From Dulcicalothrix desertica PCC 7102 (lineage in GTDB: Bacteria > Cyanobacteriota > Cyanobacteriia > Cyanobacteriales > Nostocaceae), in assembly GCF_003991905.1 (NCBI RefSeq), contig NZ_RSCL01000040.1, forward strand, positions 1-64,000: 64,000 nucleotides of DNA, written 5' to 3'. The translations under genes were made by a program, and so were the position numbers. Position 1 is the first letter of the stretch; the number at the start of each line of letters is the position of its first letter. Below the pieces are notes generated by a model. That model was not told where the DNA came from. It saw only the letters and a list, made by a program, of their open reading frames with translations, and did no database searches. Positions 29,982 to 37,921 of this stretch are shown here, in pieces.

Positions 29982-30335
29982 TTATTTCCTTACTCGGTTT
30001 TTAATTTCTTTGTCCCAATAAACTGTCAAAATCTGAGGATTGGGAAGCCCAGATAAACACACAACCCTTAAACCTCTCAAAGTATCCTTATATTGGGAAT
30101 AAGGCGAATTATCCAGGTTGCGGTCATTAAGAGTGAAAAGCTGGGCGCCGTACCGATACTTCTTTTGCCCATATAAAAGAGCAATTTTTATCATCGCTTC
30201 GCTAATTGCCCTTTGTTGCTGGCGCCGTTGTACGTGGGTGCTGTCTTTGTGTTTGGGCGCAATTCTGAGAGTATAAATTTTAGCCTTTTTCTCATCTTTT
30301 TCAAATATCAAGCTTAGGCGTTTTTTGCTATTCAT
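29982..30335 (-). CDS. DUF4258-like small protein
   Basis: The 117-residue protein shows the DUF4258-type layout: THVQRRQQQRAISEAMIKIAL (H...R...QR...I), Y-G, FTLNDRNL, LRGLRVVCL and a final TVYWDKEIKN strand. Such proteins are often single-domain and found beside toxin-antitoxin or mobile genes; their fold is thought to be RelE-like. It is divergent from the HTH-ATPase gene at 30504, sharing a 168-bp intergenic region. Confidence 0.55.
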   Translation of the reverse strand: MNSKKRLSLIFEKDEKKAKIYTLRIAPKHKDSTHVQRRQQQRAISEAMIKIALLYGQKKYRYGAQLFTLNDRNLDNSPYSQYKDTLRGLRVVCLSGLPNPQILTVYWDKEIKNRVRK

Positions 30336-30384: not shown

Positions 30385-30428
30385 TTTTCCAGACCAGGAT
30401 AGTTCAGATAAACTAGAGAAAACTGAAC
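30385..30428 (+). promoter_or_regulatory. Putative operator shared by HTH-STAND genes, copy 1
   Basis: TTTTCCAGA (30385-30393), GTTCAG (30402-30407) and the inverted CTGAAC (30423-30428) lie 76 bases before the ATG at 30504. The same three elements, with identical 17-base spacing between the first two, precede the gene at 34328. The inverted arms are 21 bases apart (start to start), about two helical turns, as for a dimeric repressor. Confidence 0.55.
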
Positions 30429-30503
30429 CAATCTGACCTTTTCAATTAGGCTCATAACAAGATAAGCTATACGGAAGGAAAAATGTAGCAAACATTACAA
30501 GTA

Positions 30504-31766
30504 ATGCATCAACCTAAATCCAGTACAGTTAAAGTCAGTCCGATGGGACAACAGAAACTTAGAGACGCGAAAAAAGCTCAACGCTCAAATATACATGGCA
30601 CTTTAAAGCGATTGACCTACGAAAAACTTGCTGAAAAAGCTAACGTGTCCTTAAGTACAGTAAAGCGCTTATTTAAAGGAGAGACATTACTAACTGAATA
30701 TGCAGAAGCAATAACTGATGCTTTAGGTGTTAATTTGCAAGATGTTATAGTAGAGGAATCAGCAAATGTGGATTTTCCATATGATGTTGAACGCCCTAGC
30801 CTTGAATCATACTGCTACGAAGCACTTTTTGATTCAGGTTCTCTAGTTCGCATTAAAGCACCTCATGGCATGGGTAAAACTTCATTAATTCAAAAAGTTA
30901 TTTGCAAGTTTCAAAATCATGACTATACTACAGTAATCATAAGCTTCAACGATGCAGAACAAGAAGATTTCTATAGTTTAGAAAATTTTTTACGATGGTT
31001 ATGTCTAATTATTGGTAATGAGTTAAATTTGCAAAATAGGCTAGATGAATTGTGGGATTGTAAAAATAGTAACAAAATTAACTGTACAAGTTACTTTCAA
31101 GATTATTTATTAAATTCAGTTAAAAATCAATTAATTCTGTGTATGGATGACATGGATTTAGTTTTTCAAAATTTGGAAGAATACGAAGACTTTTGTGGAC
31201 TCCTACGTTCCTGGTATAATAAAATGCAGATTCGTTCTGCGTGGAAAAAACTCAAGTTAGTTGTAATACACTCAACTGAAGTGTATATGATAAAAGATAT
31301 TAATCAATCTCCATTTAATGTTGGTATTTCTATAGAGATACCTGAATTGTCTTTACAAGAACTAATTAGTTTAGACAACTTGTATCAGTTAGACCTAGAG
31401 GTATATCAAATAAAACAATTTATGGATATTATTGGAGGACACCCTGAATTAGTCAAACAAGCATTTGTTAAACTTAAACATGACCAAAATATTAGTTTCT
31501 CTTCCATCTTAGAATATGCTCATACCGAGCAAGGTATATATAGAAATCATTTGCGTCAACACTTATTGAATTTAAAAAAACAACCAGAGCTACTTCAAGC
31601 TTTCAAAAATATAGTCATGACAAATAGTTCAGTTTGTTTAGAAGATGAAGTTAAATATAAGTTACTAAGCACAGGACTAGTAGTATTAGATGGAAATAAT
31701 CTAAAAATTCGTTGCAAGTTGTACAGCGAATATTTTCGTAATAAACTAGGAAATGCCAATGAATAA
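30504..31766 (+). CDS. HTH-STAND-type P-loop ATPase, small form
   Basis: The 420-residue protein has an N-terminal helix-turn-helix ([20 protein letters not shown], about residues 33-52), then a P-loop ATPase with Walker [11 protein letters not shown] (~residue 118-127) and Walker [13 protein letters not shown] (~211). A winged-helix-like end follows. The HTH closely resembles that of the NACHT protein at 34328 (VSLST-KR core). It overlaps the next ATPase gene by 14 bp, so the two are probably co-translated. The gene is AT-rich and contains no GGCGCC. It belongs broadly to the AAA_35/STAND group; the function is unknown, with signalling or defence likely. Confidence 0.75.
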
Positions 31767-33399
31767 TGCATCGAAATCAATATATAGAGTTGGAGGGACT
31801 TTACCTGCTAATCATCCTAGTTACGTTATACGGCAGGCAGATTATGAACTGTATAACTTATTGAAGGATGGAGAATTTTGCTACGTTTTAAATTCTCGAC
31901 AAATGGGTAAATCTAGTTTGCAAGTACAAACTCAAAGCACATTAGAAAATGAAGGTATTATTTGTGCGAATATAGATTTACAAGCAATTATTGAAAAGCA
32001 AATTACTTCAGAACAGCTTTATAAAGGTATATTATACGAGCTAGTGGGACAGTTAGACTTAGATGTGCATCTAAACGACTGGTGGCAACAGCATAATCAA
32101 TTATCAGCAATACAAAGATTTAGTTTATTTGTAGAAAAAATATTATTAATTCAAGTTGATAAAAACATTGTTATCTTTATTGATGAGATAGATAAACTTC
32201 TGAGTTTAAATTTTCCATGTGATGATTTTTTAGGAGTAATTCGTAGTTTTTACAATAAAAGCGCTACAAATCCAGACTATAAGCGTTTAAGTTTGTGTTT
32301 ACTGGGAGTAGCAAGACCTTCAGATTTAATACAAGACAAAGAACGTACACCCTTTAACATAGGTAAAGCAATTAATCTAAGTGGATTTCAATTTAAAAAA
32401 TGCGATGCATTGATACAAGGTTTATCTATTATCAGTCAACACCCTGAAACTGTTTTTCAAGAGGTATTAAATTGGACGGGTGGGCAACCTTTTCTGACGC
32501 AGAAACTATGCAACTTAATTTTACAGTCGTCTGAATTAATTCTTACTGGCAATGAAAAAGAAAAAGTTAAACAAATCGTTAAGTCAAGAATACTTGACAA
32601 TTGGGAAAGTCAAGACAATCCTGAACATTTAAAATCTATACGTGACAGAATACTCAATAATAAACGGTATACAGGACGTTTATTAAATTTGTATAATAAT
32701 ATTTTAGATTTTGAAAATAATCAGAAGGGAAAAGTAACAGCTTCTGATAGTTATGAGGTATGGCAATTAAGATTATCAGGTTTAGTCATTAAAGAAAATG
32801 ATAATTTAAGAATATCTAATCAAATATATAAACGTGTTTTTGGCAAATTATGGATTAATAGGGAATTAAATCAGTGGCTCCCTTTTACCGAAAGTTTAAG
32901 GCAATGGGAAACTAACCAAGATAAATCACGATTATTAAAAGGACAGGAATTAAAAGATGCCTTACTATGGGCTACTGACAAGAACCTAAATGACGATGCT
33001 TATAAATTTTTAATTACTAGTCAAGGGTTAGAGAATAAAGAACTTCAAGGTTTGTTAGATTCACAAGAATTAAAATCAAGCTTAACGTATGTAAATCCTG
33101 ACCCTGAAATTTTGAAGAGGGAATTAGAAAAGCAGCAGAATTTATTAGAAGAAGAGAAGGAAAAAAATAATATAGTTCAAAAGCAGATAAAACGAACTAA
33201 ATTTTATTTTAAAATAGCTAAGATTCTAATATGTATATTATTTTTTCCATCTTTACTAGGATTTATAGTAGGATATTCCTACATAAATTCAAATCTCCAT
33301 AAATTTTATCCAAGAGCTATTGAAGCAGAAACACTTAAAAAGAATCAGCCAGGTATAATGCAAGAACCACAACAAAGAGATGATTGTAAATGCCCTTAA
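31753..33399 (+). CDS. AAA_35-type ATPase with C-terminal membrane anchor
   Basis: The 548-residue protein matches the cyanobacterial 'AAA-like' family (AAA_35): [20 protein letters not shown], the Walker [14 protein letters not shown] (~residue 46-58), Walker [15 protein letters not shown] (~139) and the [12 protein letters not shown] block. After a charged coiled coil it has one membrane helix ([20 protein letters not shown], ~488-507) and a short tail. Relatives usually carry this ATPase upstream of effector or sensor domains. The gene starts inside the end of the HTH-ATPase gene. It has no GGCGCC. Likely a membrane-tethered partner of the preceding protein. Confidence 0.75.
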
Positions 33400-33500
33400 T
33401 TTAGGCAAGCAACATACATGTGGTCAAAACATTTTAATGCATGGTGCAGGCGCCACTTTTTCTCACGACTGCCCCAGTCATAAAAAGCATATTTCAATTT

Positions 33501-34175
33501 TTATGACGCTGTCATACACGAAGCTTCGCTGTTTTGCCAAAAATCATCTACTTTCTGCTTCCATAAATCCCAGCTATTAATAACCTGTTCTGGTTCAAAC
33601 CAAGTTACGCTAGCTTCATCGGGAGTAGTGACAATCACCAGCGCGTTCTTTAATTTCAACCCATACTGACGATTAACGGCGCCGCAGTAAGCAGCTAGCT
33701 GTAAAGGCTCATCGTACAATGGCTTTAGACGTTCGGCTGACTTAAACTCAATCACACTAGGTATACCAAGAAAGTTGGCAACGCAATCAGCCCTGCCAGC
33801 ATATCCTAAATAATAGTGAAACAAGTTTCCTTCAACCAGCCTGATATTATCGATATTATCTAGTATTGGCAACAATTTTTCCCAATAAGGTCTGACCAAG
33901 TTAGGGCAGGAATAAGGCTGACCTAGAAGGTGCTTTGAAACTAGTTCGTGGATAATAGTTCCGCGTTCCTTGGATGCTTTTATTATTCGGTCGGCTTCAG
34001 TAGAGCCAACTTTTTCACGCCAGCGAACCAATTGCGCTTTCTGTAGTGGAGATTTGGTAGCTTGCAAAATGCTCGTTACACCTGGAAGACGAACACCGCG
34101 ATTATCTACAAGGTATCCAATACCATTTTCCCAGGAGGGTTTGCCATGATAGTAAGGAAGAAGTTTAGTTTCCAT
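33501..34175 (-). CDS. PD-(D/E)XK nuclease, MGME1/Cas4/RecB-like
   Basis: From ATG 34175 the product has 224 residues with all core motifs of RecB-type single-strand exonucleases: RGTIIHE (His 76), VEGNLF (Glu 116), GRADCV (Asp 130), VIEFKSAE (Glu 143, Lys 145) and EPLQLAAYCGA (Gln 159), plus PGVTSIL and KERGT blocks seen in MGME1-like proteins. A longer frame starts with GTG at 34223 but would run through the putative operator at 34224-34268 region's edge and lacks support. It is divergent from the NACHT gene. No Cys cluster, so it is not a typical Cas4. Confidence 0.82.
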   Translation of the reverse strand: METKLLPYYHGKPSWENGIGYLVDNRGVRLPGVTSILQATKSPLQKAQLVRWREKVGSTEADRIIKASKERGTIIHELVSKHLLGQPYSCPNLVRPYWEKLLPILDNIDNIRLVEGNLFHYYLGYAGRADCVANFLGIPSVIEFKSAERLKPLYDEPLQLAAYCGAVNRQYGLKLKNALVIVTTPDEASVTWFEPEQVINSWDLWKQKVDDFWQNSEASCMTAS

Positions 34176-34223
34176 ATAAATACGTTGGGGTGAATAATTA
34201 CAGAATATTTTGGTAGCCAGCAC

Positions 34224-34268
34224 TTTTCCAGAGCAGTTCGGTTCAGCTCAGTCCTAAATGAACTGAAC
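34224..34268 (+). promoter_or_regulatory. Putative operator shared by HTH-STAND genes, copy 2
   Basis: TTTTCCAGA (34224-34232), GTTCAG (34241-34246) and inverted CTGAAC (34263-34268) lie 60 bases before the NACHT gene ATG and 49 bases upstream of the divergent nuclease ATG. The first spacing (17 bases) is identical to that at 30385-30407; the arm spacing is 22 instead of 21. It may control both divergent genes. Confidence 0.55.
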
Positions 34269-34327: not shown

Positions 34328-37300
34328 ATGGCTAAACCTAATCAATCCGCTAAACCCCGTGGTGTTGCAGCAACTTCGGGAGGAATTAAGAAAATTAAAC
34401 AAAGGATTGCTGAACTAGAGAAACAAGAAATTCACAAATTAAATAGAAAGATTTGGACACAAGATTATATTGTAGAGCGCACTGGTGTATCATTAAGTAC
34501 ATATAAGCGTTTTTTGTCAGGAAAGCCTGTAGAACCTGATTTTATTACTTGGATAACTCAAATATTTGGTTTAGAACCGCTAGATGTCGTTTCTTCAGAT
34601 GAGTGGAACCAAGCAATAGTAAATTTACAACCAAAGCAGAGCAAAGATATTGACTGGCGCCTGGTTTGTAGTAAAATGCTGGAAAAACAGCAAGAAACCC
34701 AAAGACTCAGAAGAAAAGCAACTGAGATGGGGTTTGAATTAAATATATATGCCCGTCTGGGTTTGGTAGAACGAAAACAACAGCAACGTCGTGCAGGAAA
34801 TATTGAACCAAAGCAGTTAAATCAACTACAACCAGAAGTCATTGCCAAAATCTATCAACATGATGAATTTCTCCAAAGGTTTACAGAGCAAAACCAAGGT
34901 TGTAAAAATAGACATACTGCAATCATTGGAGAAGCAGGAGCAGGAAAAACCACTTTATTAAGTAAAATTGCATCTTATATTCAAAAAAACACAGAAAATT
35001 TATTTGTCTTTATCTCTTTGTCCAACTTAGAAGGACGAAGCTTACAAAATTACCTTATTAAACAGTGGCTTCCTGAAGCTATGGGGGTAAGCTACCCTGA
35101 ACTTGATGTTACGCCAGAAATAGAAAAAAAATTTATAAAGCGCTTTCGTCAAGGTAGTGTGCGGCTGCTATTAGATGGCGTAGATGAAATGCAAAATACT
35201 ACACCTTTACATTCGATTCAATCTCAATTAAAAGATTGCCTAAATCAGATAAGGGTCGTATTAACCTGCCGCAATAATGTTTGGGATGCAAGTGTTAATA
35301 ATGAAATTACGGGGTTTGATACATTCAAAGCCCAGGAATTTGAATCAGAGCAAGTTAATGAATTTATCGAAAACTGGTTTGATGGCGCCAATGATAAACA
35401 ACAAGGCGATTTACTAAAAGCTAAATTGCAAGAACCAGGAAGAGAAAGAATCCGGGACTTAGTAAGAAACCCTCTTCGCTTATCACTACTGTGCCAAACC
35501 TTTGATGTTAATAAAGGCAGCTTCCCAGAAACTAAAGCTGCTCTGTATAAACGGTTTATTTTGTATCTTCAGGAGTGGAAGCAACATTTTTATTCTGTAG
35601 ATTGGGAAATTCAAAAAAAATTACATAAAGCATTGGGCAAATTAGCATTGGCAGGAATTAATAGCGATACTAAATTTATATTTAGAGAAAGCGTGGCACG
35701 TCAAGAAATGGGCAATAGCCTATTTGAGTTAGCTCGTGATGTTATTTGGTTACATCAAGTACACAGAGATATACAAACCGATGAGCCTGTTTTTGCATTC
35801 TTTCATCCTAATTTTCAAGAATATTTTGCAGCTTTAGCAATCGATGATTGGGATTATTTTCTTAAGCATGTTCCGCTTAATCCAGAACAAGGCACTTATC
35901 GAATTTTTGAGCATCAATGGAAAGAAGTAGTTCTATTATGGCTTGGAAGAGATAATATCGCAGAGGCTAAAAAAGCAGAGTTTCTCTCAAGCTTATGCGA
36001 ATTTGAAGACAAATGCGGAGGTTTTTATAAATGTCAAGCTTTCTTTTTAGCTGTTGCTGCAATTGCTGAATTTAAAACTTTTCCGTGGAGCGATAGTATA
36101 ATAGAGCAATTAGTAAAGTTTGGTGTTAGTGAAGCTTATAGATATCTTAATCCAATTCCTTTAGAAGCAAGAAATTTAATAATACAAACTAATCAACAAA
36201 AGATAACTCAAGCTTTAGTTAATTTAATTAAAAAATGTCAAGACGAAAATATTATATTACTAGCGATAAAAGAGTTAATTAAAATTGAGCAAACAAATCA
36301 AATTATCAAACCAATTTTAAATCAGTTAATAGAGAAGACTAAAGATGAGTATAATTATTTAATGTTTGTATGGAACTTAGGTAAAATAGATAAAAATAAA
36401 CAGATATATATAAAATTGTTAGCAGAATTCATTCAAAAATCTAAAAATGAAGAAAACCTATGGCTTGCAGCACATGCTTTAAGCCAATTAGAAATAGAAA
36501 ATTTAATAGCTATCAACACTTTGCAAGATTTAGCAGAAAACTCACAAAATCAAAAAGTTTGCAAACATTGTATATATACTTTAGTAGGTATTGCTAAATT
36601 TAATCCAGAGGCTATTATTGCTTTAGGTTTGATTATTGAAAGTACACAAAATGTAAATGTTATTAAGCTAGCTATTTATTCATTAAATGATGTTGCTAAA
36701 CATAATTCAGATGTCATTTATATTATAGTAGAAATAATTAACAATGTCACTAATACAGACATCGCTACGCAATTAATACTTGTGTTACGAAAAATAGCTC
36801 AATATAATGTAAACGCTATAATTGAATTAGGTAGATTAAGTTTTGAAAATAATAATCAAGAAATTCAATTACATGCAATGTGTCATTTAACAGAGCTATC
36901 AATACTTAATCCTTCGGCTAGTTGCATATTTAAACTAATTTTGAACAAATTAAAATTAGAAAATTATGAACAGTATACAATCATGTTATACTGGATTAAT
37001 ATAATTGTTAAAGATTATGATGTTCTCTTAAATAAAGCATTAAAATCTAAAAAATATGAAAATTATCAATTTTCTGAAAAAGATTTAGAATTTTTACGGT
37101 TATATGCTGGTGAAGATAATAAAAAAATTGTTTCTAATTATTCTCGACAAATTCAAAATCCTTTAAATAATGATGATATTATTCAAACAGCAGTGTTTAT
37201 ATTAAGCGACAAAGGGATAGGAGATTACCAAGCTTGTACAACTTTATTGAAATTAATAGATAAATCTCAAAGCCAAGAAACTCGTTCAATCGCAATATAT

Positions 37301-37921
37301 TCTTTGAAAAGCATCTTAACACAAGATTTAATTCTGAAAATTCTTACTGAGTTTAAAATTAAATTATCTAGTGAAATTTTTGAAACAGACTTTGAATTAT
37401 ATCATGAGTTTTATCAGTTGGCATGGTACTGTGCTAGAAATATAGCTTATCCAGATTTTTTTAAAGCTTGGCACTATGAATCTTCTCTAATTCAAAGTTT
37501 CAAAAGTCAATTTACAAATATTCGCTTACAATTGAAAGCTATGGAAAAAACATTTCCTATTCTTATTAACGCTTATGCACTAGAAAATGAAACTGATACA
37601 AGTGCTATATCTCAAGAAATATGCAACCAAATCTATCTCGAAGCTTTATCTGATGTAGAACCGCTAGAAGTGAACAATGCTCCTCAACTAAAGCGTCTTA
37701 TCCTTAGATTTAAAAACCAACTGAAGACGCAAAAATTAGCTATTATTATTGAAAATTGCCAGCCAAGTCAAGAACTGATAGCTTTTTGCCGCAAAATTAC
37801 TGATGTAGTGAGTATTGCTTGGATAACTGACGAACCTCTAGAAGCACCCTTGCGAGGATTCCCACCTAATCAGCCAAATTTACTCAATGCAATTCAAAGC
37901 TGGATTAACGAAATAGAGTAA
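34328..37921 (+). CDS. HTH-NACHT NTPase with helical-repeat C-terminus (NLR-like)
   Basis: The 1197-residue protein has an N-terminal HTH (YIVERTGVSLSTYKRFLSG, ~residues 48-66), a NACHT NTPase with Walker A IIGEAGAGKTTLLSK (~199-213), Walker B VRLLLDGVDEM (~279) and LTCRNNVWD, the NACHT-associated FFHPNFQEYFAA block (~495), then a long region of HEAT-like helical repeats (~600-900) and a small alpha/beta end (KLAIIIENCQ...VVSIAWITDEP). Bacterial NACHT proteins include known antiphage effectors; the terminal alpha/beta piece resembles domains described at NACHT C-termini. It is divergent from a PD-(D/E)XK nuclease and shares an upstream element with the gene at 30504. Its second half lacks GGCGCC. 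Confidence 0.85.
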   Translation: MAKPNQSAKPRGVAATSGGIKKIKQRIAELEKQEIHKLNRKIWTQDYIVERTGVSLSTYKRFLSGKPVEPDFITWITQIFGLEPLDVVSSDEWNQAIVNLQPKQSKDIDWRLVCSKMLEKQQETQRLRRKATEMGFELNIYARLGLVERKQQQRRAGNIEPKQLNQLQPEVIAKIYQHDEFLQRFTEQNQGCKNRHTAIIGEAGAGKTTLLSKIASYIQKNTENLFVFISLSNLEGRSLQNYLIKQWLPEAMGVSYPELDVTPEIEKKFIKRFRQGSVRLLLDGVDEMQNTTPLHSIQSQLKDCLNQIRVVLTCRNNVWDASVNNEITGFDTFKAQEFESEQVNEFIENWFDGANDKQQGDLLKAKLQEPGRERIRDLVRNPLRLSLLCQTFDVNKGSFPETKAALYKRFILYLQEWKQHFYSVDWEIQKKLHKALGKLALAGINSDTKFIFRESVARQEMGNSLFELARDVIWLHQVHRDIQTDEPVFAFFHPNFQEYFAALAIDDWDYFLKHVPLNPEQGTYRIFEHQWKEVVLLWLGRDNIAEAKKAEFLSSLCEFEDKCGGFYKCQAFFLAVAAIAEFKTFPWSDSIIEQLVKFGVSEAYRYLNPIPLEARNLIIQTNQQKITQALVNLIKKCQDENIILLAIKELIKIEQTNQIIKPILNQLIEKTKDEYNYLMFVWNLGKIDKNKQIYIKLLAEFIQKSKNEENLWLAAHALSQLEIENLIAINTLQDLAENSQNQKVCKHCIYTLVGIAKFNPEAIIALGLIIESTQNVNVIKLAIYSLNDVAKHNSDVIYIIVEIINNVTNTDIATQLILVLRKIAQYNVNAIIELGRLSFENNNQEIQLHAMCHLTELSILNPSASCIFKLILNKLKLENYEQYTIMLYWINIIVKDYDVLLNKALKSKKYENYQFSEKDLEFLRLYAGEDNKKIVSNYSRQIQNPLNNDDIIQTAVFILSDKGIGDYQACTTLLKLIDKSQSQETRSIAIYSLKSILTQDLILKILTEFKIKLSSEIFETDFELYHEFYQLAWYCARNIAYPDFFKAWHYESSLIQSFKSQFTNIRLQLKAMEKTFPILINAYALENETDTSAISQEICNQIYLEALSDVEPLEVNNAPQLKRLILRFKNQLKTQKLAIIIENCQPSQELIAFCRKITDVVSIAWITDEPLEAPLRGFPPNQPNLLNAIQSWINEIE

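Follow-up and report, generated by a model that had tools for sequence, protein, structure and literature searches.

In a stretch of 64,000 nucleotides from Dulcicalothrix desertica PCC 7102 (contig NZ_RSCL01000040.1; hereafter the window), two genes for signal transduction ATPases with numerous domains (STAND proteins) that carry an N-terminal helix-turn-helix (HTH) are preceded by the same three-part sequence element, and each lies back to back with a smaller gene. A preliminary description had proposed that a common regulator, perhaps the HTH domain of the ATPases themselves, controls a set of conflict genes through this element. The two modules contain the following features.

29982..30335, - strand: P0004, DUF4258 protein of 117 aa, divergent partner of module 1 (DUF4258 26.2 bits, cut-off 25)
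30385..30428, + strand: putative operator 1, TTTTCCAGA-N8-GTTCAG (30402)-N15-CTGAAC (30423), from the exact pattern scan and the spacing grammar
30389..30396, + strand: CCAGACCA box of operator 1, 13 bp ahead of GTTCAG (start to start), shared by part of the relatives
30433..30438, + strand: third half-site of operator 1, CTGACC, 10 bp past CTGAAC (tandem spacing 9-10 bp)
30504..31766, + strand: P0001, HTH-AAA_35 STAND protein of 420 aa, putative regulator 1 (AAA_35 1.7e-111; HTH_3 6e-6)
30645..30671, + strand: recognition-helix stretch VSLSTVKRL of P0001, with specificity residue Ser51 (counted by eye)
33501..34175, - strand: P0003, MGME1-like/phage-type exonuclease, divergent partner of module 2 (phrog_298 8e-40; MGME1 2e-15)
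34224..34268, + strand: putative operator 2, TTTTCCAGA-N8-GTTCAG (34241)-N16-CTGAAC (34263), from the exact pattern scan
34228..34235, + strand: CCAGAGCA box of operator 2, from comparison with relatives
34328..37921, + strand: P0002, HTH-NACHT STAND protein of 1197 aa, putative regulator 2 (NACHT 3.4e-13; NCAB1 2.4e-31)
34487..34513, + strand: recognition-helix stretch VSLSTYKRF of P0002, with Ser57 as the second residue of predicted helix 56-63

We observed that the pattern TTTTCCAGA-N8-GTTCAG-N15/16-CTGAAC was present exactly at 30385-30428 and 34224-34268, both on the + strand of the window, while it occurred in 0 of 100 dinucleotide shuffles of the window. The same element thus precedes the genes at 30504 and 34328, with GTTCAG 17 bp after TTTTCCAGA and CTGAAC a further 21 or 22 bp on, as had been described. 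When the whole genome was searched for the spaced motif (11,419,637 bases, 109 contigs), the full pattern was found twice on the forward strand and not at all on the reverse strand, and a backwards control gave 0. Both matches precede HTH-STAND genes, and the many unrelated hits that would have spoken against the proposal were not seen for the full motif in this genome. Among the 24 HTH-family matches in this genome, the inverted template lay within 250 bp ahead of the match only at the window's two genes.

Relaxed searches of the whole genome, with up to 2 mismatches, gave 44 places for TTTTCCAGA-N8-GTTCAG as against 27 in the control, and 57 places for CCAGASCA-N5-GTTCAG as against 57 in the control. 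Thirty of the 44 were inspected, and only the window's two carried CTGAAC (up to 1 mismatch) 14-18 bp on; among the 30 of the 57 that were inspected, those that passed were the window's two and L360, whose third part carries 1 mismatch on top of 2 in the relaxed part. As there was no third copy of the full motif, and no good one among the inspected relaxed places, a genome-wide regulon was rejected. Seven other exact TTTTCCAGA-N8-GTTCAG places were found in 120 genomes; none had the exact CTGAAC arm, and L004 had it with 1 mismatch.

P0001 gave an HTH_3 match of 26.6 bits (cut-off 23), and we take its AAA_35 domain to be of the STAND type. P0002 gave a NACHT match of 50.2 bits (cut-off 26.7), and its C-terminal part contains NCC-H and NCAB1 regions and a HEAT_2 match. 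No Pfam HTH match was found in P0002 at 0.01; it belongs to the HTH family of P0001, and its model shows HTH helices and XRE-like folds, with phage repressors, SinR, HipB and CapH among the folds nearest to the modelled HTH. By sequence, the HipB antitoxin was among the nearest solved relatives (E 0.01). The shared HTH core noted earlier, VSLST-KR, is present as VSLSTVKR in P0001 and VSLSTYKR in P0002, and both genes are indeed divergent from a small toxin- or nuclease-like gene, DUF4258 in module 1 and the phage-type exonuclease in module 2. The two HTH regions are identical at only 16 of 48 positions, so a recent HTH duplication does not account for the operator that they share.

Of 83 upstream regions of the family's HTH genes, 5 were duplicates; the other 78, which include the window's two and some close relatives, were scanned with a strict template, NNNCAG-N14..18-CTGnnn, that requires 2 or more of the 3 arm letters to match. 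The template occurred in 23 of the 78 regions, while 100 shuffles gave a mean of 2.55 and a maximum of 8, and 20 of the 23 sites lay 84-102 bp ahead of the start codon. A looser template, with the third letter free, occurred ahead of 30 of 144 unique HTH N-termini (identical 70-aa N-termini dropped). For the half-site, partner, pair and Ser/Asp inverted-pair sets, rows with a hidden Markov model (HMM) score below 40 were dropped. In the 120 loci of the half-site set, half-sites of the form G[GT]NCAG / CTGN[AC]C numbered 154 between -140 and -40 (shuffle mean 32.9, maximum 52), and 75 loci carried them (shuffle mean 28.3, maximum 44). Same-direction half-sites were 9-10 bp apart in 17 cases (shuffle mean 0.07, maximum 1), and forward-to-reverse half-sites were 21-23 bp apart in 21 (shuffle mean 0.03, maximum 1). 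Operator 1 fits both the tandem and the inverted grammar, with CTGAAC 21 bp after GTTCAG and CTGACC another 10 bp on, and its reverse half-sites stand at positions -81 and -71 (locus L040). Operator 2 fits the inverted spacing at 22 bp. The conservation that the preliminary description had called for was also found, since the same inverted pair as in operator 2 precedes the relatives L155, L252, L154, L158 and L173, all of the Ser class defined below. In four Ser-class genes (L154, L158, L172 and L173) the operator is displaced to -260..-281, and a repeat-rich stretch (by eye) of GTCCACTTAAGTGGAC-type inverted repeats separates it from the HTH-STAND start.

Control loci were scanned over 300 bp from the match start. 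Of 14 DUF4258 loci, 1 had the strict template, as did 2 of 30 loci with the exonuclease, and all three face an HTH-STAND gene; in control loci without an HTH-STAND of this HTH type it was seen in 0 of 9 and 0 of 26, respectively. The control is weak, as the template was missing too in 4 of 5 DUF4258 and 2 of 4 exonuclease loci that do have such an HTH-STAND, three of these four DUF4258 loci carrying GGAAGATA-type inverted repeats instead. For control loci L097 and L098 the scan began within the gene, and hence they provide no proper test. At L125 (G003:C1, ~9591487), in the same genus, the DUF4258 gene is 88% identical, but neither an HTH-STAND nor an operator template was seen beside it, and an exonuclease remnant lies ~5 kb away; this region may be a decayed island. 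The exonuclease relatives at L096 and L099 face STAND-like proteins with a different N-terminal HTH, which we take to be VMAP-like. Their intergenic regions contain several GTAGG-type direct repeats (by eye), which may be another HTH-operator class.

We also searched motif-first, scanning 84,980 species with the pattern CCAGASCA-N5-GTKCAG-N15..17-CTGMAC, and 37 stretches matched. Five of these were cyanobacterial (Microcoleus, Tychonema, Lyngbya, Dolichospermum and Nostoc), with a spacing of 16 in all, and all were upstream of coding starts. Four of the five lay outside any open reading frame (ORF) longer than 150 aa; in Nostoc L234 the motif lies upstream of the first ATG of the HTH-STAND, whose reading frame continues without a stop across it. 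The next downstream gene was an HTH-STAND in four of the five, ~95-290 bp on, and the fifth match, L214, ends before the next gene and is near-identical to L226. The four visible genes (L154, L155, L252 and L170/L228) were already known from the protein search, so they confirm specificity and add no independent cases. For 31 of the 32 non-cyanobacterial matches, one strand carried an ORF longer than 150 aa that enclosed the match, as expected by chance. Seven of these, from Pantoea and relatives, Enterobacterales (L230, L231, L238, L242, L243, L246 and L247), had the relaxed motif in one homologous conserved coding region, a chance match repeated by homology and a warning for hit counts. Viral spread was rejected: two matches were in viral contigs, and no HTH candidate was found there by regular expression.

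The half-site letters were found to track one residue of the recognition helix, Ser going with CTGAAC and Asp with CTGCAC/CTGCCC. After rows with an HMM score below 30 were dropped, 35 loci were concordant with this code, 2 were discordant and 29 were uninformative, and 0 of 20,000 permutations were as good. Of the 20 Ser rows, 8 had inverted pairs (two being the window's), all GTTCAG/CTGAAC; of the 41 Asp rows, 7 had them, and the reverse arm carried C in all 7. Across the compared loci, the letters follow residue d of the recognition helix (Ser to A, Asp to C). Both window proteins are Ser-class, so cross-regulation between the modules would be expected, if the binding is real; the two appear to share one specificity, and each may bind the other's operator.

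The strongest evidence for a pairing of HTH and operator, as judged by sequence comparison, is that the two change jointly. In the same-genus genome G006, the counterpart of window module 2 has an exonuclease 84% identical, a linker identical at 42/62 and NACHT parts 71-80% identical, while the HTH core (residues 36-92) is identical at only 11/54, and the operator is GGGCAG..CTGCC as against GTTCAG..CTGAAC in the window. Among 84 proteins (those below 280 aa dropped), 189 pairs were at least 55% identical past the HTH; their median identity was 63% there and 47% in the HTH. Eight pairs were compared closely, with identities as follows.

L191/L190: HTH 11/57; later part 137/145; partner nuclease 210/230; operators unrelated by eye
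L153/L163: HTH 23/60; later part 145/150; partner 83/93
L156/L161: HTH 25/56; later part 136/148; partner 67/76
L269/L184: HTH 17/54; later part 132/142
L165/L169: HTH 28/60; later part 142/150
L257/L252: HTH 13/57; later part 106/145; partner 84/117
L095/L094 (window pair): HTH 13/58; later part 114/144; partner 188/227
L271/L255: HTH 18/60; later part 127/148; partner not comparable (18/84)

Seven of the eight pairs combine flanks 72-97% identical on both sides with a joint difference in HTH and operator; the operator of L163 itself is at -222, beyond the compared stretch. On the simplest reading, the effector gene on one side and the sensor on the other are conserved, and the HTH and operator between them move as one cassette; related cyanobacteria appear to have exchanged the HTH and its matching operator together.

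At 90 of the 120 loci, a divergent ORF (75 aa or longer) begins no more than 400 bp away. These ORFs were called mechanically and some are probably spurious; rows with less than 400 bp upstream were dropped. Sixty-eight start 90-280 bp away, 54 of the 68 are at most 130 aa long, and a simple hydropathy rule marks a membrane-like segment in 27 of these 54. Around the window's DUF4258 protein, 12 partners formed a BLAST cluster, with the partner start at -167 in five of its loci (some of them close relatives); the partner of L257, in this cluster, had no Pfam match at 0.01, unlike the window's. The exonuclease cluster has 4 members. Other partner families were PLD-like (L177, L309), PDDEXK_1 (L191), Gp49 (L181) and CyanoTRADDas_TM (L207), and the L193 partner matched DUF2726 below threshold. 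The small membrane-like partners at L078, L270 and L159 had no Pfam match. The divergent neighbours are often effector-like.

The same HTH was found fused to NACHT and AAA_35 (window), iSTAND (L196; inactive STAND), TIR_2 (L286), and TRADD-like_N with DUF1822 (L199), while L293 had no domain match; 8 of 10 proteins were scanned for such fusions. It is also fused to a phycobilisome-like domain (PF00502) in L207 (G000:C65:7019-9900, in the window's genome) and L292; L207 faces a CyanoTRADDas_TM two-transmembrane protein, and a pigment-protein fold is odd in a conflict-type regulator. In G135:C1:5325417-5361213 (L272, L284, L296), at least 5 HTH-family genes or fragments lie within 36 kb as a module array.

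As regards the window's own genes, the P0003 ORF extends to 34223 with a GTG start, and comparison with relatives suggests that the true start is probably 34175. A sequence search of solved structures gave nothing for P0004. PADLOC matches were weak only (mad8 3e-7 for P0002, Cas4 5e-5 for P0003), and an NCBIfam scan gave nothing decisive. Two further genes adjoin the modules.

31753..33399, + strand: second AAA_35 protein, 548 aa, overlapping the end of the P0001 gene
28199..29479, - strand: protein of 426 aa whose match to the plant disease-resistance domain RPW8 is weak (24.7 bits, under the 30.4 cut-off)

The first of these is probably on the same transcript as the P0001 gene; its protein forms an AAA_35 pair with P0001 and has a hydrophobic segment near the C-terminus (by eye).

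Together, these comparisons show an element that is real and specific, with fixed spacing, and an HTH and operator that differ together between otherwise similar modules. We propose, at a probability of roughly 0.7, that each HTH-STAND protein is a self-regulating transcription switch that couples sensing to transcription of itself and of the divergent gene. The N-terminal HTH, probably of the Cro/CI type, would bind an operator in its own divergent promoter region, made up of one forward and one or two reverse half-sites (inverted 21-23 bp, tandem 9-10 bp apart). As this operator lies between the STAND gene and the divergent, often effector-like gene, binding could set both. The STAND or other sensor part, on meeting its signal, would alter DNA binding, and the altered binding would change the expression of effector and sensor. 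We infer from these comparisons that the HTH would bind directly and govern the partner gene, and that the module may react to a signal and serve in defence or cell death. Repression of a toxic partner at rest would be a guess, and activation as in XssQ (see below) fits equally well. The earlier idea that the ATPases' own HTH is the regulator appears well supported by the recognition code, the spacing grammar and the joint change of HTH and operator. The idea of a common regulator for a set of conflict genes is supported only in the narrow sense of two promoters in this genome, but no wider regulon was seen; as the operator letters of the relatives match each module's own HTH, the general rule looks like self-regulation.

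Several observations weigh against this proposal. The strict template was missed by 55 of the 78 regions and the looser one by 114 of the 144, either because half-sites vary by HTH class or because the operator is absent, displaced or diverged. The partner gene is missing at some loci, or of unassigned function, so partner control is drawn from position only. L198 and L201 are discordant with the code, and no half-site was found at -140..-40 in Ser rows L149, L255, L272, L296 and L154 (in the last the operator is displaced). In 4 of the 12 concordant Ser loci (L158, L172, L173 and L187) the letter came from stray GGTCAG-type sites and not from the operator, though three of them do carry GTTCAG/CTGAAC further up. 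The sample includes close relatives; the tree requires at least 4 Ser/Asp switches, of which 2 are forced by well-supported branches, and in a tree-based test independent pairs nearly always agreed and were too few for significance. The eight closely compared pairs were hand-picked from the extreme end of the list. A sigma-70 promoter scan gave none in intergenic region 1 and one in region 2 (0.4 expected), none of them convincing.

Among the alternatives, plain autoregulation survives best, although we consider it unlikely. In this case the HTH would set the level of the STAND protein only, the divergent gene being a protein-contact effector or a bystander. The position of the reverse half-sites would suit this, since they are closer to the STAND gene (mostly -81..-65 relative to its start), as would the wide variation of partner families. 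However, the operator stands between the divergent genes at a fairly constant spacing, as with the five DUF4258-cluster partners at -167, and partner and STAND remain together while HTH and operator differ between them.

Somewhat less probable is a toxin-antitoxin-like arrangement, in which the HTH-STAND neutralises the partner protein and also represses the locus, as many antitoxins do, and STAND activation frees the toxin. The partners do include the type II toxin families DUF4258 and Gp49, and the partial text of PMC11980606 lists DUF4258 among RelE/ParE-superfamily toxin families with unknown target. In the window, a partner of a toxin family was found in module 1 only (DUF4258). The sequence relationship to HipB points the same way. 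Type II toxin-antitoxin genes typically form an operon; partner and HTH-STAND are divergent in both modules, however, and the remaining partner types include nucleases, PLD-like proteins and small membrane-like proteins.

We think it improbable that some unrelated host factor binds the inverted repeat and that HTH and operator correlate only through joint inheritance of whole loci. The few independent Ser/Asp switches and the close relatives in the sample would allow it, but HTH and operator differ together between flanks that are 72-97% identical in 7 of 8 pairs, and the letters track one residue even in distant families such as P0001 (AAA_35) and P0002 (NACHT), with HTHs alike at 16/48. An RNA element (leader hairpin or attenuator) in place of a DNA operator is hardly credible: compensatory arm changes (GTT/AAC to GTG/CAC) would suit an RNA stem and operator 2 folds moderately well (z -1.77; 11/200 shuffles as good), but the folding of operator 1 does not exceed that of shuffles (z -0.47), no Rfam family matched at the gathering threshold, and tandem half-sites 9-10 bp apart and the tracking of the HTH residue would be left unexplained.

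Our proposal of a self-regulating switch was compared with known systems, from partial texts of the papers cited. XssQ of Synechocystis PCC 6803, a cyanobacterial STAND whose N-terminus carries an HTH, binds specific DNA in electrophoretic mobility shift assays and activates exopolysaccharide genes via AAGTTXXAC, together with a two-component pair (PMC8205485). The window proteins resemble it, by its description, as cyanobacterial STANDs with an N-terminal HTH, but unlike XssQ they face effector-like genes and have CAG/CTG-core inverted half-sites, with the operator at their own promoter region. The bNACHT antiphage proteins described in PMC12169576 have an N-terminal PD-(D/E)XK DNase effector, or none readily discernible; P0002 likewise has a central NACHT and a C-terminal sensor-like region, but its N-terminus is an HTH with no fused effector, the nuclease being a separate divergent gene. 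HipB, CapH and CdxB, XRE/Cro-CI-type regulators of defence loci, have what looks like the same kind of HTH as the window proteins, and CdxB represses the lypABC lysis system, which is CARD-NLR-like (NLR, nucleotide-binding leucine-rich repeat) (PMC13236601); these are separate small proteins, whereas the window HTH is fused to a sensor ATPase. In TRADD-N and related counter-invader systems, an 'ECF-like HTH' was taken as pointing to a transcriptional response (PMC8195603). These are modular conflict proteins as well, the L199 HTH being fused to TRADD-like_N and a CyanoTRADDas_TM protein facing L207, but the partial text of PMC8195603 describes no operator, recognition code or HTH-operator exchange. 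HTH-STAND regulators, including the activator XssQ, bNACHT defence and XRE repressors of defence loci are thus already known. We found no account of HTH-operator exchange in STAND loci, or of HTH-STAND/effector divergons with a recognition code, in our searches of the open-licence PubMed Central literature, and the effector pairing, the recognition code and the cassette exchange seem new.

More tentatively, and with less confidence than in the switch itself, these loci could be a transcription-coupled branch of bacterial NLR-like immunity. In NACHT, AAA_35, iSTAND, TIR and TRADD-like proteins, a plug-in HTH would stand in for the effector domain, and a signal once sensed would lead to expression of a back-to-back toxic gene. 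HTH and operator would form an exchangeable specificity cassette whose exchange would stop modules of the same cell from cross-firing (orthogonal wiring), with the window holding a wired pair. The finding suggests how NLR-like proteins might act when their N-terminus is not an enzyme, namely by switching genes, and this answer can be tested. The Ser/Asp rule predicts from sequence alone which operators a protein would bind and between which modules of a genome cross-talk could occur. That DNA-binding domain and operator change jointly while sensor and effector stay looks like an evolutionary means of rewiring or insulating immune-like circuits.

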